From Nitrososphaerota archaeon (GTDB lineage: Archaea; Thermoproteota; Nitrososphaeria; Nitrososphaerales; Nitrosopumilaceae), in assembly GCA_028867755.1 (NCBI GenBank), contig JAGWFT010000001.1:722727-786726 (forward strand): a DNA stretch of 64,000 bases, given 5' to 3'. Positions 6,019 to 23,475 of the stretch are shown here, in pieces. The notes beneath the pieces are model-generated. The model was not told where the DNA came from. It did not search any database and was given only the letters and a program-made list of their open reading frames with translations. The position numbers and the translations under genes were made by a program. The first letter of the stretch is position 1, and each line of letters opens with the position of its first letter.

Positions 6019-6793
6019 GATGTTTTGCAGCTTCCTTTGCTGTTTCTTTTCTAAATATTATTGCAGCAAGAGCATGAGTCATCTTGGTCGGACTGGCATG
6101 CTCAAAGATGTTTCTTCCATATGTAACTCCCTTAGCTCCAGCCTGCATTGCTTCTTCTGTCATCTGTAGTATGTCCTTGTCTGTCTTTGCTTTTGGACCA
6201 CCTGCAATTACAACTGGAACTGGAGTACTCTTTACTATCTTAGAAAATGAACCTATGTCTCCAGTATACAATGTCTTGACAATGTCAGCGCCACACTCTG
6301 CACCAATTCTTGCCGCGTGTCCAACAATTTCTGGGTCATGTGGATTCTTTACGTTTTCTCCTCTTGGGTACATCATTGCAAGTAATGGCATACTCCACTT
6401 GTGACATTCATCCGATATTTTTCCAAGTTGCTCAAGCATTTCTGGTTCTTCTTTTCCGCCAATGTTGATATGCAAAGATACTCCATCTGCTCCAAGTCGC
6501 ATTGCTTCTTCGACTGTTCCAATGAGCATCTTTCTGTTTGGAGACATGGAAAGGGACGTACTTGCAGAATAATGAACTAGTAATCCAATCTTAGTTGGTT
6601 TGGGCAAGTTCTTGAAAATTCCTTTATTGATTATAACAGATGTAAGACCAAAATTCTGGCATGCGTAGATCAAGGGATATGGATCTTCAATTCCCTTTAT
6701 GGGACCGCTTGATATTCCGTGGTCCATGGGGATACACAGCATCTTACCATTTCGCATTATGCGATTCATTCTAATTTGAAAACCACTGACCAT
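6005..6793 (-). CDS. aroA': 2-amino-3,7-dideoxy-D-threo-hept-6-ulosonate synthase
   Basis: 262 residues, class I aldolase fold. It condenses aspartate semialdehyde with a ketose phosphate to start the archaeal aromatic pathway. Visible: [10 protein letters not shown] near residue 22, [13 protein letters not shown] near 100, the Schiff-base lysine in [10 protein letters not shown] near 177 and the phosphate-binding VVIAGGPK near 200. A fructose-bisphosphate aldolase of the same superfamily is the alternative, but coupling to DHQ synthase II settles the role. First gene of the operon. Confidence 0.92.
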
Positions 6794-15026: not shown

Positions 15027-16022
15027 ATGCTTTCTCTTGATTCTGACTCGTATATGAAATGTGCTCGCTGTGGAAAGAGCGCCATGGTAACAGATGGTTC
15101 TACAGGAGAGAGATTTTGTGGAGTATGTGGGTTTGTTATCAATGAACGAATTGAAGATTCTGGCCCTGAGAGACGTTCATTCTCAAAAGAAGAACATGAG
15201 GACAGGTCAAGAACAGGCGTGCCATCGTCTCTTGCGATGCATGATATGGGACTTGCAACCGTGATAGGACACGATAACAAAGATGCAACTGGAAAGCCGC
15301 TTTCAATATCAATGAAGAGCACTATAACACGTCTCAGAACATGGGATAGTAGAAGCCAAGTTCACGAGTCTCAAGAGAGAAACCTTAGGCAGGCATTCAG
15401 CGAGCTTAGCAGAATGAAAGACAAACTTGCACTATCTGATTCTGTGGTTGAAAAGACTGCATACATTTACAGAAAAGCATTAGAAAAAAATCTCACAAGA
15501 GGCAGATCAATTCCTGGATTGATTGCTGCAGCAATGTATTTGGCATGTAGAGATACTGGTACCCCGAGGACATTAAATGAGGTAGCACACCAAATCAACA
15601 TAAAAAGAAAAGATGTGTCTAGATGTTACCGATTACTCCTAAAAGAACTCGATTTGAAAATGCCGGTGTTAGATCCCATAAAATGTATGTCACGAATATC
15701 AAGTCAGGCGCGTCTAAGTGAAAAAGTAAAACGACAAGCTCTTAAGATTTTAGAAGATGCAAACAAGCTGGAAATTACTGCAGGAAAAGATCCTATGGGA
15801 ATGGCAGCAGCAGCATTGTATCTTTCATGTGCAATAAACAAGGAAGGTACAACACAAAAAGTCATCGCTTTAGCAGCCGGAGTTACAGAAGTTACAATAA
15901 GAAACAGATGTAAAGGATTACGAGAATTACTAGACATAAAAATTCCAGACAAATTGAATCTAAGGCTGGGTTATACTGAAAAATCTACAAACTCGGTGAT
16001 TCAAGTTATGACGCCCGAATAA
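15027..16022 (+). CDS. tfb: Transcription initiation factor TFB
   Basis: 331 residues. N-terminal zinc ribbon CARC...CGVC (about residues 12-35), B-reader/linker region with GPERRSFSKEEHEDRSRTG, then two cyclin folds (IPGLIAAAMYLACRDTGTPRTLNEVA near 170 and PMGMAAAALYLSCAINKEGTTQ near 255). It recruits RNA polymerase to TBP-TATA complexes and reads the BRE. Thaumarchaea usually encode several TFBs; which one this is cannot be told here. Confidence 0.95.
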   Translation: MLSLDSDSYMKCARCGKSAMVTDGSTGERFCGVCGFVINERIEDSGPERRSFSKEEHEDRSRTGVPSSLAMHDMGLATVIGHDNKDATGKPLSISMKSTITRLRTWDSRSQVHESQERNLRQAFSELSRMKDKLALSDSVVEKTAYIYRKALEKNLTRGRSIPGLIAAAMYLACRDTGTPRTLNEVAHQINIKRKDVSRCYRLLLKELDLKMPVLDPIKCMSRISSQARLSEKVKRQALKILEDANKLEITAGKDPMGMAAAALYLSCAINKEGTTQKVIALAAGVTEVTIRNRCKGLRELLDIKIPDKLNLRLGYTEKSTNSVIQVMTPE

Positions 16023-19220: not shown

Positions 19221-19511
19221 CTACTGCCAAGTTATCTTTAGGAATACCAGGGAGCCAGCAAGCTGTACTATGCGAACAATCAGAACAAACGGCAAGAGTG
19301 CAGCCTGATACAAGTCAAACATGACGAAGTATGTGTATACATTGATTGCATTATCTAAAAAGAGCATTGCAACAAAAAAGATCATTCCAAGGTGAACCTG
19401 TGATTTTGTTTTTGAATGCATCTTTACAAAGGTAGCAATTAGAACGCTGAATACTCCCATGTTTGCCATTGCAACAATGGCACAGTATGGAATAATTGTG
19501 ATCAAACTCAT
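19221..19511 (-). CDS. Small membrane protein, three spans
   Basis: 96 residues with three or four hydrophobic helices (about 5-28, 40-58, 60-90) and a basic loop KMHSKTKSQ. It ends a three-gene minus-strand run after two winged-helix regulators (12 bases downstream of the nearer), so it may be their sensor or target. No family recognised. Confidence 0.65.
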   Translation of the reverse strand: MSLITIIPYCAIVAMANMGVFSVLIATFVKMHSKTKSQVHLGMIFFVAMLFLDNAINVYTYFVMFDLYQAALLPFVLIVRIVQLAGSLVFLKITWQ

Positions 19512-19523
19512 TCACCCTGTAAT

Positions 19524-19892
19524 TTACTTGTCTCTGTACAAGTTTGCAGCAAGCTCATCAAAGATAGCAATGTTTACCTCAAGAAAAGTGGAAAGAAAAT
19601 AGGTTGTACCATACTTTTCACCCACGTGTGACACTAGGTTATTTTTTTCGAGAACTCCAATGTGATGCTGTATTGCCCTATAGTTTAGTTCAAGCTCTTT
19701 TGCAAGTTGGTGTGCATTGAGCGGTGACTTTTTCAATGCAAGAACCATTCTTATTCGGTTCTGACCTCCTCGAGAATTTGCAAATACCATCCATAGTAAA
19801 TTCTTTGCATAGGGTAACTCTGTGTCCTTTTGGTTCGAATCTTCTACAGTTCTATGATTGTGATATGATGATACAGTATCAAATGTGCGCAT
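19524..19892 (-). CDS. Winged-helix regulator, ArsR-like (paralogue 2)
   Basis: About 122 residues from ATG 19892, which lies 25 bases downstream of TATA-like GTATTTATG; the frame is open further, to a TTG at 19943. The HTH reads LPYAKNLLWMVFANSRGGQN, KSPLNAHQLAKELELNYRAI, QHHIGVLEKNNLV. Closely related to the next gene upstream, so a tandem duplication. Probably dimeric DNA-binding repressor; no metal-binding CxC motif visible. Confidence 0.8.
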   Translation of the reverse strand: MRTFDTVSSYHNHRTVEDSNQKDTELPYAKNLLWMVFANSRGGQNRIRMVLALKKSPLNAHQLAKELELNYRAIQHHIGVLEKNNLVSHVGEKYGTTYFLSTFLEVNIAIFDELAANLYRDK

Positions 19893-19946
19893 AGTGGCAT
19901 CTTTACGTGATAACATAAATACATTTTTCAAGATTGAGTGCAAATT

Positions 19947-20252
19947 CTATTCCTTGGCTCCATAGGCTTTCGACACGATTTCATTATATGCTTCTATATT
20001 GGCTTCAAAAAAGGTAGAAGGGAAATAGGTTGTACCATATTTCTCACCGACTTTTGTAATGAGGTTATTTTTTTCTAGTACCTCGAGATGATGCTGTATT
20101 GCCCTATAGTTTAATCCTAAATCATTTGCCAACTGGTTGGCATTGCGTGGAGACTTTTGTAATGCAATCATGATCTTGACTCTATTTTCTCCGCCTCTTG
20201 AGCTGGCAAAGATAAAAAAGAGAAGATTTTTTGCATATGGCAAGCTCGGCAT
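19947..20252 (-). CDS. Winged-helix regulator, ArsR-like (paralogue 1)
   Basis: 101 residues: LPYAKNLLFFIFASSRGGEN, KSPRNANQLANDLGLNYRAI, QHHLEVLEKNNLITKVGEKY. Well over half identical to its downstream paralogue over the shared 95 residues. Located directly downstream of the multidomain cupredoxin gene (85 bases), so it may control the copper genes; that is inference from position. Confidence 0.82.
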   Translation of the reverse strand: MPSLPYAKNLLFFIFASSRGGENRVKIMIALQKSPRNANQLANDLGLNYRAIQHHLEVLEKNNLITKVGEKYGTTYFPSTFFEANIEAYNEIVSKAYGAKE

Positions 20253-20337: not shown

Positions 20338-21708
20338 TTAGGAAACGACTATGGTTCCACGCATCTGTGAATGGATCATACATGCATAATCGTATGTTCC
20401 AGGCTTGTTGAAAGTAAACGTGAATGTCTTTCCTGGTTTGAGGAATCCACTATCAAAGGTTCCATCCGCACTGGTAGTTCCTGGCTTGACTGATGTTACA
20501 GTATGTGTGGCACCATCGGTGTTCACAAAAGTTACAGTTGTTCCTGCCTTGATGTTAAGCACATCTGGCGTGAAGAATGGTGATTCCAAGCCATTGATGT
20601 ATACTGTGTTTGGTGGTGGATTGGCATTTGTGTCAGTTGTGGATGATAACGCACTTCCAGTTGGTTCTGAGACAAACACGTTAAAGTCTGTGTATGCCGC
20701 TCCCCACATGTAGTTTGAGAGAGCGCTTGGTTGAAGTTTAACATCCATAACATATGGCCCTGAACTTGGAAAAATCTCAGTCAATGACTCTACACCAGTG
20801 TGACCATGGACTGCTCCATTCATAGCAAGTGCTCCTTCGACTGGTGCAGATTGTGCTACAATGTAACCTCCAGTTGATGCAGTAACTTGCAGGTCAGGAT
20901 GTATAATCATGGAATGATCCTGAGCTTTTGTCACAGTAAAGACAAAAGTTACAGGCTGTCCTGCGACAATTTTGTTCGAGGTCGTGCTAAACTCTAAATT
21001 GACTGCAGTTCCTGGAATTGTTCCATTGAGTGTATGTGTCTGGTCTATGTTTTGCACATAAACTGGAAACTCAAACTCTCTTGCTCCAAAATTATTTTGT
21101 GGATCCTTGGCAAAGTCCTTTGGACTTCCAGATAGCATTGTATGAGTCCATCCTTTAGGAGTTGGTTCCAATCCGCCCATTGTAGTTCCAATTGATGATA
21201 CAGTCAGGTATACAGTACTTTCACCTGCTGTTGGAAAAGCTACACTAAAGCCCATGTTTCCAACGTGGGAATGTCCAGTTGTTGTTTTGTAGACAAGGTT
21301 TCCATTTGGATCTTTTACTGCTATTGCCCAATCAACATGGCTAAGCTTTGCTCCAGAGACTGAGTCTTTTACATGCATCTGGATTGAGGCTAGGTTATTT
21401 GTTTGAATCATTGGGGTCGCAGTAAAGTCTACTGTGACATTGTCAGATGTCTTTGATAGCGGCGTATTCTGTGTATCGCTGTCCTTCATTTCATTTGACT
21501 GGCCAGAGCTCATCGAATCTTGCCCATACATCATTGCTGTCATATCATGATGTGGTGCGGTCATCGAATTGTTGTCTGCAGTCATTGCACTGGCTTGCCC
21601 TAGATCTTGCATCTTGTTGTCATGCGACATAAGGTCAAGCGGTACAATCATTGCAAGTACAGCAACAGTTGCTATAACTATTGTTGTAATAGCTAAGTTT
21701 GTTTGCAT
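20338..21708 (-). CDS. Membrane-anchored multidomain cupredoxin with Met/His-rich segment
   Basis: 456 residues. N-terminal membrane anchor (about 5-25), then a Met/His-rich stretch to residue 80 (MSHDNKMQD, TAPHHDMTAMMYGQDSMSS) suited to Cu(I) binding, two or more beta-sandwich regions, and a C-terminal type I copper domain: FVNTDGATHTVTS provides one His, and YACMIHSQMRG gives Cys, His, Met with amicyanin-like C-x2-H-x2-M spacing. Extracytoplasmic electron carrier or copper store. It shares a 35-bp upstream element with the cupredoxin gene at 21934-22464. Confidence 0.88.
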   Translation of the reverse strand: MQTNLAITTIVIATVAVLAMIVPLDLMSHDNKMQDLGQASAMTADNNSMTAPHHDMTAMMYGQDSMSSGQSNEMKDSDTQNTPLSKTSDNVTVDFTATPMIQTNNLASIQMHVKDSVSGAKLSHVDWAIAVKDPNGNLVYKTTTGHSHVGNMGFSVAFPTAGESTVYLTVSSIGTTMGGLEPTPKGWTHTMLSGSPKDFAKDPQNNFGAREFEFPVYVQNIDQTHTLNGTIPGTAVNLEFSTTSNKIVAGQPVTFVFTVTKAQDHSMIIHPDLQVTASTGGYIVAQSAPVEGALAMNGAVHGHTGVESLTEIFPSSGPYVMDVKLQPSALSNYMWGAAYTDFNVFVSEPTGSALSSTTDTNANPPPNTVYINGLESPFFTPDVLNIKAGTTVTFVNTDGATHTVTSVKPGTTSADGTFDSGFLKPGKTFTFTFNKPGTYDYACMIHSQMRGTIVVS

Positions 21709-21738
21709 GACATGGTTCTGCTTATAAAATTATATAGC

Positions 21739-21773
21739 AATATTTCAAAATCAAGTGTAAATTATATGCAAAT
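21739..21773 (-). promoter_or_regulatory. Shared 35-bp upstream element, site A
   Basis: Plus-strand reading AATATTTCAAAAT, then GTGTAAATTA, then ATGCAAAT. 32 of 35 positions match site B at 22501-22535. It lies 31 bases before the ATG of the multidomain cupredoxin gene, just upstream of a TATA-like box at about 21722-21731, where an archaeal activator or repressor would act. Confidence 0.65.
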
Positions 21774-21933
21774 CTCTAGAATTGTTTTATGGTCGGGAAA
21801 GTAGTCAATTATTTGATGCTAGATATGAACAAAGTTATGCAGATTATTGATAGACCTTATTGTATAAAAAATTAAAAAAAATAACATGATGCTATTGCCA
21901 GCGTGATCTGCTGATTATATTGCGGCATCATAC

Positions 21934-22464
21934 TTAGTTGATTCTCGGAAGGACCACTATCTCGCCACGCATGTTTGGCTCGTGCATTGAACACCAAAAG
22001 TCGATTGTTCCAACATTGTCTGCTGTAAAGGTAATGGTTTTCATCTCTCCTCTATGAATGTCAAACTGGGGAGCAATTCCGTCTACAGTTATCATATGTT
22101 CTGGTCCCTGGACATCTACAAAGTTGAGAGTAACTTGGTCGCCTTGGTTTACAACAATTACTGAAGGTGCAAACATGTACTGCCTTACCTTCCATCCTCC
22201 CATACTATCTATTTTTTTTATTACCAAGCCGCCTCCAGAGGGAAGGGTTGAGTTTGGATATGGCTCTGACGGGTGATCGGAGGCTGGATAAATGCTGGTT
22301 ATACCATCTAGGTGGACTGTTGCTATGTAGAATGTCTTTTGTGACGCGGCAGAAGCCGTATTGGTTTGTCCGAACATTTGTCCTTCAAGAGAAACCGTGG
22401 CAATGACTCCAGCTATTGCAGCTATTGTCAGGCCAAGAATTACACTCTTGTTTAGATTTTTCAT
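21934..22464 (-). CDS. Secreted or membrane-anchored single-domain cupredoxin
   Basis: 176 residues. N-terminal hydrophobic anchor (about 8-26). Copper ligands visible: H123 in GPEHMITVDG, and C158, H161 and M165 in WCSMHEPNMRG (C-x2-H-x3-M). The loop is shorter than in plastocyanin and resembles the end of a cytochrome oxidase subunit II CuA loop without its second cysteine. Likely an extracytoplasmic electron carrier, as expected for the copper-based respiratory chain of ammonia-oxidising thaumarchaea. Confidence 0.87.
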   Translation of the reverse strand: MKNLNKSVILGLTIAAIAGVIATVSLEGQMFGQTNTASAASQKTFYIATVHLDGITSIYPASDHPSEPYPNSTLPSGGGLVIKKIDSMGGWKVRQYMFAPSVIVVNQGDQVTLNFVDVQGPEHMITVDGIAPQFDIHRGEMKTITFTADNVGTIDFWCSMHEPNMRGEIVVLPRIN

Positions 22465-22500
22465 ATAGTCAAAAAGTAATTTATTAGAAAGCTATTTAGT

Positions 22501-22535
22501 AATATTTCAAAATGATGTGTAAATTACATGCAAAT
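22501..22535 (-). promoter_or_regulatory. Shared 35-bp upstream element, site B
   Basis: AATATTTCAAAAT, then GTGTAAATTA, then CATGCAAAT. It lies 37 bases before the ATG of the single-domain cupredoxin gene and about 14 bases upstream of a TATA-like TAATTTATTAG (22477-22487). Nearly identical to site A in the same position and orientation relative to its gene. Confidence 0.65.
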
Positions 22536-22575
22536 TACCTTTTTATCACTAGTTGACAATGTTAGTTCAACAGTA

Positions 22576-22595
22576 ATTTGCATGTAATTTTGAAA
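22576..22595 (+). promoter_or_regulatory. Shortened inverted copy of the element, site C
   Basis: ATTTGCATGTAATTTTGAAA is the reverse complement of both ends of site B with 11 internal bases, about one helical turn, missing. It points the other way, towards a TATA-like CTCTTTATGTTATT at about 22599-22612 and the inverted repeat at 22629-22677. Confidence 0.5.
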
Positions 22596-22628
22596 AATCT
22601 CTTTATGTTATTATGATATTAGAATCTC

Positions 22629-22677
22629 GGTTCGATTCATTTAACATGTTCTCAACCCCGTACGATTGAATCGAACC
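22629..22677 (+). ncRNA. Possible hairpin RNA or large operator
   Basis: GGTTCGATTCA (22629-22639) and TGAATCGAACC (22667-22677) are perfect 11-base inverted arms around a 27-base centre that includes the palindrome AACATGTT. A TATA-like box at about 22600-22607 places a transcription start near 22628, exactly at the left arm. The rest of the 351-base gap (22465-22815) holds sites B and C and two AATTCGAAATA repeats (22694, 22772). RNA versus protein-binding palindrome is undecided. Confidence 0.35.
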
Positions 22678-22815
22678 AACTAAAATTTTCAAAAATTCGA
22701 AATAAAACTATTATTTGTTTCCAGTAATATGTCGCATCATGCAGTTGTGATTTGTATAAAATTTGTATGTGAATTCGAAATATCGCTAAATAATAAATTT
22801 TTAATCTTGCTGTCA

Positions 22816-23475
22816 ATGACTAAAAAAATACTATTGGGAATTGCTATGGCAGCAATTGTGTTGGCCTTGGGGATAGGAACACAAAACTTTGCTCTAGCAA
22901 TGACAGACAATGCACAAGGTGGTGTTGCTAAAAATGTATCATCTCCAACATTTGTATCATCCACTGATTCCATGATGTTAGTGGCAACTTCGCCCACTGC
23001 TAAAGGCGGTAAGGCTACTTTCGCATTGGTACCAAGACCTGCTGAAGGGATAGATGGAATACCAGTTCCAAAACAAGCTGCACCTGATATGATACTGGTT
23101 GCAACATCAAATGGTAGACATATCAGTTATACGTTAGTACCAAGACCCATTGAAGGGATAGATGGAATACCACTTCCAAAACTAATTCAGCAGAACTCAG
23201 AGACTACAGTATCCTCTCCCAAATCTACTGATCCAAGTCCTATGATGCTTGTGGCAATTTCTCCTACTAAAAAGGGAGGAAGTACTACCTTCATGTTAGT
23301 GCCAAAGCCAGTCGAGAATGTAGATGGAATACCAATGCAAAAACAGACAAGTCCTGACATGATACTGGTTGCACAGCCATCGCCCAATGGCGGTAAGCCT
23401 ATCTTCACATGGATACCAAAACCTGTTGAAGGTATAGACGGTATACCACTCACAAAATCGCCTCCAAATAGCTGA
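22816..23475 (+). CDS. Secreted four-repeat protein, unknown
   Basis: 219 residues from ATG 22816; TATA-like TAAATAATAA at about 22787-22796. Signal peptide MTKKILLGIAMAAIVLALGI ending near LAMA. Then four repeats of about 33 residues (53-86, 91-122, 143-176, 181-214) of pattern (M/I)(M/I)LVA...(F/Y)xLVP(R/K)PxExxDGIPxxK. Repeats 1 and 3 carry SPTxKGG, repeats 2 and 4 begin PDMILVA, so a two-repeat unit duplicated. No cysteines. No family recognised; located beside the copper genes. Confidence 0.8.
   Translation: MTKKILLGIAMAAIVLALGIGTQNFALAMTDNAQGGVAKNVSSPTFVSSTDSMMLVATSPTAKGGKATFALVPRPAEGIDGIPVPKQAAPDMILVATSNGRHISYTLVPRPIEGIDGIPLPKLIQQNSETTVSSPKSTDPSPMMLVAISPTKKGGSTTFMLVPKPVENVDGIPMQKQTSPDMILVAQPSPNGGKPIFTWIPKPVEGIDGIPLTKSPPNS

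Follow-up and report, generated by a model that had tools for sequence, protein, structure and literature searches.

Ammonia-oxidising archaea depend on copper proteins. ArsR/SmtB regulators, whose winged-helix fold recurs at the locus described here, usually bind palindromic operators and not direct repeats with an 11-bp step, and in the SdpR/SdpI system of Bacillus an ArsR-type autorepressor is sequestered by a membrane protein; in archaea, operators placed upstream of the TATA box usually activate. For Nitrososphaera viennensis, a copper-limitation motif (TTCSGSMTTTGWACYANT, core TTTGWAC) has been reported at -35 to -70, together with an ArsR-family gene presumably co-transcribed with one of the motif-bearing genes, and the same study left the transcriptional regulation of Cop genes as an open question (Reyes et al. 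2020, PMC7785015). Our search of the literature retrieved no description of a copper-responsive regulator with a defined operator for ammonia-oxidising archaea. Here we analyse a window of 64,000 nucleotides from an archaeon of the ammonia-oxidiser lineage, in which two cupredoxin genes share a long upstream element. In our assessment, this element is probably the operator-promoter of a self-contained regulatory cassette, most likely bound by one or both of two winged-helix proteins, wHTH1 and wHTH2 (Table 1). The locus thus offers a candidate regulator-operator pair, a promoter grammar of two classes that differ in the number of 11-bp units and in how the TATA region is built, a candidate small RNA whose position follows from the promoter geometry, and a cassette that sits at different genomic sites along with its own control circuit.

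Table 1. Features of the cassette, with positions in the window.
Feature	Position	Strand	Basis and remarks
Small hydrophobic membrane protein	19221..19511	-	3' of wHTH1 in 9 genomes
wHTH1, winged-helix protein, HTH_5/ArsR-like fold	19524..19892	-	Pfam PF01022; ATG 38 nt from TGAAA box
wHTH1 promoter module (class II)	19914..19945	-	ATTTGCACTCA + ATCTTGAAAAATGTATTTATG; overlaps the end of wHTH2
wHTH2, 101-aa paralogue of wHTH1	19947..20252	-	Pfam and alignment
Cupredoxin A, 456 aa, exported	20338..21708	-	Pfam PF13473/PF00127; start 39 nt from TGAAA box
Promoter module A (class I)	21730..21773	-	Sequence and orthologous promoter alignment; profile E 8e-12 (training sequence)
Module A units	21773-21763; 21762-21752; 21751-21741; TATA box 21737-21730	-	ATTTGCATATA; ATTTACACTTG; ATTTTGAAATA
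Cupredoxin B, 176 aa	21934..22464	-	Closest solved relative is nitrosocyanin
Promoter module B (class I)	22492..22535	-	Orthologous promoter alignment; profile E 8e-13 (training sequence)
Module B units	22535-22525; 22524-22514; 22513-22503; TATA box 22499-22492	-	
Promoter module C (class II)	22576..22607	+	One unit ATTTGCATGTA + ATTTTGAAAAATCTCTTTATG; pattern match with 0 mismatches
Candidate small RNA	22629..22690	+	11-bp stem 22629-22639 / 22667-22677; C-rich loop; T-run 22686-22689
Promoter module D (class I, degenerate)	22750..22793	+	Profile E 4e-12 (training sequence)
Module D units	22750-22760; 22761-22771; 22772-22782; TATA region 22783-22793	+	
Gene D, exported protein	22816..23475	+	Four imperfect repeats; ATG 40 nt from TGAAA box

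On the minus strand, site A (21739-21773) reads ATTTGCATATAATTTACACTTGATTTTGAAATATT and site B (22501-22535) reads ATTTGCATGTAATTTACACATCATTTTGAAATATT. The identity at 32 of 35 positions on which the original prediction was built was borne out, as was the spacing from the start codons at 21708 (31 bases) and 22464 (37 bases). The best match to B in 60 Markov-simulated 64-kb windows of matched dinucleotide make-up reached 25/35, and the next-best match in the real window, A aside, also scored 25. A repeat search of the window extended the A/B repeat to about 52 nt at 85%, with the TATA box included. Alignment in register of orthologous promoters taken from other genomes of the genus gave the architecture [ATTTGYAYNNN]x2-[ATTTTGAAATA]-NNCTAAATA, the last element being the TATA box, located about 25 bp 5' of near-leaderless starts (aligned consensus ATTTGYAYNNN - ATTTGYAYNNN - ATTTTGAAATA - NNCTAAATAR, with 11-bp steps of approximately one helical turn). 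The second unit, changed to ATTTACAC in the present genome, again reads TTGCAT in G128 and G161, which identifies the long element as a direct repeat. Among the best-conserved parts of the array is a TTGAAA box just 5' of the TATA box.

The modules of the cassette fall into two classes. Class I, formed by two units plus TTGAAATATNNCTAAATA (CTAAATA), precedes cupredoxins A and B and gene D, all of them exported, and class II, formed by one unit plus TTGAAAAATNTNTTTATG (TTTATG), precedes wHTH1 and a hairpin RNA. Site C (22576-22595, plus strand) had been described as an inverted copy of the binding site lacking 11 internal bases, and this layout was confirmed: the site reads ATTTGCATGTA-ATTTTGAAA, which corresponds to B minus the middle unit ATTTACACATC; the missing bases are explained by an array with exactly one 11-bp unit fewer, and C is better read as the class II promoter of the hairpin RNA than as a binding site repeated in inverse orientation. 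The class I profile detected module C with an E-value of 2e-4 even though C was outside its training set. The wHTH1 promoter reads ATTTGYAYNCAATCTTGAAAAATGTATTTATG in nine genomes and resembles C, unlike A, B and D; within it, CAATCTTGAAAAATGTATTTATG is invariant in 9/9 genomes with the wHTH gene pair. This invariance covers synonymous positions of an overlapping longer frame, and the sequence 3' of the module varies with the start codon distance kept. The promoter positions suggest two corrections of gene starts, to 22816 for gene D and to 19892, a leaderless start, for wHTH1. Since promoter D lies inside the 22729-22816 extension, gene D probably starts at 22816 and the longer reading frame from 22729 would be wrong. 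Module D is better preserved in two orthologues (L046 and L047) than in the window; gene D itself matches no Pfam family, and its four imperfect repeats, of about 100 nt each, occupy 22975-23457.

Start geometry is similarly regular. Measured from the TGAAA box, the start codon lies 38-39 nt away in cupredoxin A orthologues (in-register ATG), 39-41 nt in those of gene D, 38 or 41 nt in those of wHTH1 and 42-46 nt in those of cupredoxin B, distances which match, as expected, TATA-directed transcripts predicted to be leaderless or nearly so. Downstream of C, no conserved start codon occurs at that distance from the box; the predicted start falls instead on the initial G of a hairpin (GGTTCGATTCA...TGAATCGAACC, 22629-22677) in 6/6 genomes, 38 nt past the box in five and 39 nt in the sixth. 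The stem is kept in these 6 genomes and the loops differ in length, and one double change was seen in the stem, six sequences being too few for informative covariation statistics. Among 250 genomes of the family, strong covariance-model matches were confined to the six with an intact cassette end. The hairpin has no match in Rfam, and no tRNA or known-RNA origin was found for it. The best reading of the hairpin would be a small RNA of about 60 nt. We claim no mRNA target for it, since the RNA persists without gene D in one genome and the RNAduplex values for pairing to mRNAs of the cluster were obtained without a control. Weak matches of the hairpin model in other genera (L126-L131) have mixed contexts and were taken as chance or leads. 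Two further hairpins are recorded as separate observations: in a groundwater archaeal MAG this stem (TTGGTTCGATTCAA...TTGAATCGAACCAA) recurs around another loop and in unrelated surroundings (L074, 4858-4925), and in G160 a thermosome-subunit-like gene has, just 5' of it, a hairpin whose stem (GGTTCGATCCA...TGGATCGAACC) is compensated (L180, ~6402-6471).

The element had been expected to define a genome-wide copper regulon, and the scan of the genome did not bear this out. The 15-mer core has exactly three copies in the 1.64-Mb assembly, A, B and C, and a profile trained on the A, B, D and E sites, with the C and wHTH1 sites left out, returned four significant matches, all in the cassette (E-values at training sites are by construction), with the wHTH1 site among the next at E 0.24. 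Other copper genes of the genome carry no copy, and the confinement of all strong copies to the cassette indicates a local regulon. A one-mismatch match on contig C57 falls inside a histidine-kinase gene and was discarded, as were exact 15-mer matches outside the genus, which come without the array architecture. Among 37 genomes of the genus, most of the compared assemblies being drafts, strong matches occur in seven only, all in this cassette; in G155 the cassette is spread over two contigs, with the matches near contig ends. The order D, RNA, B, A, wHTH2, wHTH1, membrane protein is kept where contigs allow it to be seen, and the seven cassettes have six settings of neighbouring genes, only those of G108 and G164 being alike, with G067 lacking gene D. 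The cassette appears to behave like a mobile unit that carries its own regulation.

The original prediction placed a regulator candidate among the winged-helix proteins at 19524-20252, and this pair does provide the best candidates, for it travels with the cassette and its homologues adjoin the array in distant families. The HTH_5 domain (PF01022) was found in wHTH1 and wHTH2 with E-values of 2e-7 and 5e-10, above the gathering cut-off, and the scores with the NCBIfam HTH_metalloreg model were below its cut-off. Neither protein nor any aligned orthologue contains cysteine, so that a cysteine-type metal motif is absent and direct copper sensing of the classical type is unlikely. The small membrane protein encoded next to wHTH1 matches no Pfam family, SdpI included, and its homologues adjoin wHTH genes in other families. 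Elsewhere in the present genome, a core wHTH paralogue and a membrane-protein gene are oriented divergently from a heavy-metal P-type ATPase that has HMA domains (L177, G000:C24:10142-12500); no module was found in the promoter of that locus, and the pairing with an HMA-type ATPase, seen in the present genome only and absent from eleven other core loci scanned, was rejected as a general link. One large region of contig C261 in G108 holds several additional wHTH genes and pairs of wHTH and membrane-protein genes (L178 and L179), one of them beside a cupredoxin gene; no class I or class II module was found in that region.

In other families, array matches carry 2-3 mismatches. G315 has a cupredoxin A orthologue, 61% identical, behind ATTTGTATTAG ATTTGTACATG AATTGTACATA ACGCTATATGC, with a wHTH homologue about 2 kb away. 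In G343/G387, G325/G391/G365 and G308/G313, similar arrays stand 5' of exported-protein genes directly adjoining a wHTH gene, which in several cases has a small membrane-protein gene as a neighbour, and in G048 it is the wHTH gene that follows the array. A wHTH gene was found within about 1.5 kb in 12 of 47 out-of-genus motif locus records (8 genomes, duplicates removed), of which the non-redundant loci number nearer 43, versus none of 66 control loci; as related genomes are not independent, we read this enrichment as four or five lineages. Several of the targets in distant genomes are exported proteins that are not evidently copper proteins; in f10 genomes they are a secreted Lipoprotein_15 repeat protein and two exported proteins, one beta-propeller-like and one SnoaL-like. 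The presence of the array beside wHTH homologues in distant families supports the wHTH proteins as the predicted binders.

Comparison across genomes shows the conserved modules, the start geometry, the co-travelling regulator genes and the linkage between wHTH genes and arrays. For binding, direction of regulation, signal and RNA expression, we infer the following scheme. wHTH1 and/or wHTH2 would most likely bind the phased 11-bp repeats, with their TTTGYAY core, on one face of the helix, and the bound protein would control recruitment of TBP/TFB at the TATA box directly downstream of the array and the TTGAAA box. Activation would be favoured, because the operators lie upstream of the TATA box. 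Class I promoters would drive cupredoxins A and B and gene D, and class II promoters would drive the ~60-nt hairpin RNA and wHTH1, whose position behind such a promoter implies autoregulation. The small membrane partner would probably pass on a signal from outside the cytoplasm to the wHTH protein, in the manner of SdpI and SdpR, and copper or redox state would be the likeliest signal.

The likeness of A and B could have a trivial origin if a promoter segment had been copied within the locus recently, with no regulatory meaning; the two genes are adjacent and belong to one broad fold family, and recombination could yield duplicated promoters. The conservation data make this very improbable. 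The modules are kept in seven related genomes with diverged flanks: units plus TATA region are 0.74-0.92 identical within orthologue sets, against 0.29-0.38 for the upstream flank, the TATA-to-start stretch is 0.43-0.60 identical, and the position of the absent first unit at site C is no better conserved than the flanks (0.34). Flanks conserved to the same degree as the element were looked for and not found, and high identity of the element combined with low identity of the flanks indicates that the element is conserved and not a duplicated neighbourhood, which upholds the earlier preference for selection over recent duplication; the element is likewise present 5' of the orthologous cupredoxin genes. 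It is also common to unrelated genes (D, wHTH1 and the hairpin RNA), and comparable arrays are present in other families. A different account would have a dedicated TFB paralogue, and not the wHTH proteins, read TTGAAA as a special BRE, the element being then a class of core promoter. The placement and conservation of TTGAAA fit this, and a TFB paralogue gene lies a few kb from the cassette in the window (15027-16022) and near it in G128 and G161. However, the stretches examined of G067, G164 and G155 have no TFB gene near the cassette, whereas wHTH genes are always near, and a BRE leaves the upstream 11-bp units and the array-adjacent wHTH genes of other families unexplained, for which reasons we consider it improbable.

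The hairpin, in turn, might belong to gene D, which follows it on the plus strand, as its 5' leader, or it might act as DNA, in the form of an inverted repeat recognised by a protein or a recombinase; the stem sequence is conserved beyond pairing needs, with a single double change among the six sequences. This is unlikely in our view, although it retains some weight: gene D has a leaderless-type promoter of its own, the hairpin and its promoter persist in G067 with no gene D downstream, the spacing of the arms differs by more than 10 bases, unusual for an operator, and in every one of the six genomes the hairpin starts where the transcript is predicted to start, all in keeping with a small RNA. 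As for the signal, it is quite possible, if somewhat doubtful, that the wHTH proteins respond to general envelope or redox stress and that cupredoxins are merely some of the targets; the f10 targets and the lack of cysteine speak for this. Against it, cupredoxin A orthologues are a target in two families, and the published copper-limitation motif has a like core and position (PMC7785015). Copper thus stays a plausible signal, to which the cupredoxins, the Met/His-rich N-terminus of cupredoxin A, which precedes a C-terminal cupredoxin domain behind the leaderless-type start, and the N. viennensis motif all point. Returning to the wHTH proteins as binders, their arrays could belong to an order-wide, so far undescribed archaeal system, in which a cysteine-free wHTH protein and a dedicated small membrane partner act on helically phased, TATA-joined TTTGYAY arrays, with the mobile cupredoxin cassette and its small RNA, under copper or redox control, as the version of this genus; we put this forward tentatively, as a nearly even call that leans slightly against.

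Compared with the described systems, wHTH1 and wHTH2 share the HTH_5 winged-helix fold of ArsR/SmtB proteins but, unlike them, have no cysteine, and the candidate operator is a direct-repeat array upstream of the TATA box and not a palindrome overlapping the promoter. The cassette is like SdpR/SdpI in having an ArsR-fold wHTH gene with the element in its own promoter and a small membrane-protein gene adjacent; both proteins score weakly with the NCBIfam SdpR model, at 26-27 bits where the cut-off is 100, and the position of the wHTH operators upstream of the TATA box suggests activation, in contrast to the repression by SdpR. As compared by its published description, and not by individual sites, the N. 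viennensis motif likewise has a TTTG core, sometimes repeated, 5' of the start codon, in that case in copper-responsive genes, and the TTTGYAY core of the present array lies at about -34 to -68. The N. viennensis motif, however, has a longer 5' side (TTCSGS) and occurs on either strand at several loci, whereas the array described here consists of direct repeats strictly phased at 11 bp that run into a TTGAAA box and a TATA box, and it is confined to one cassette.
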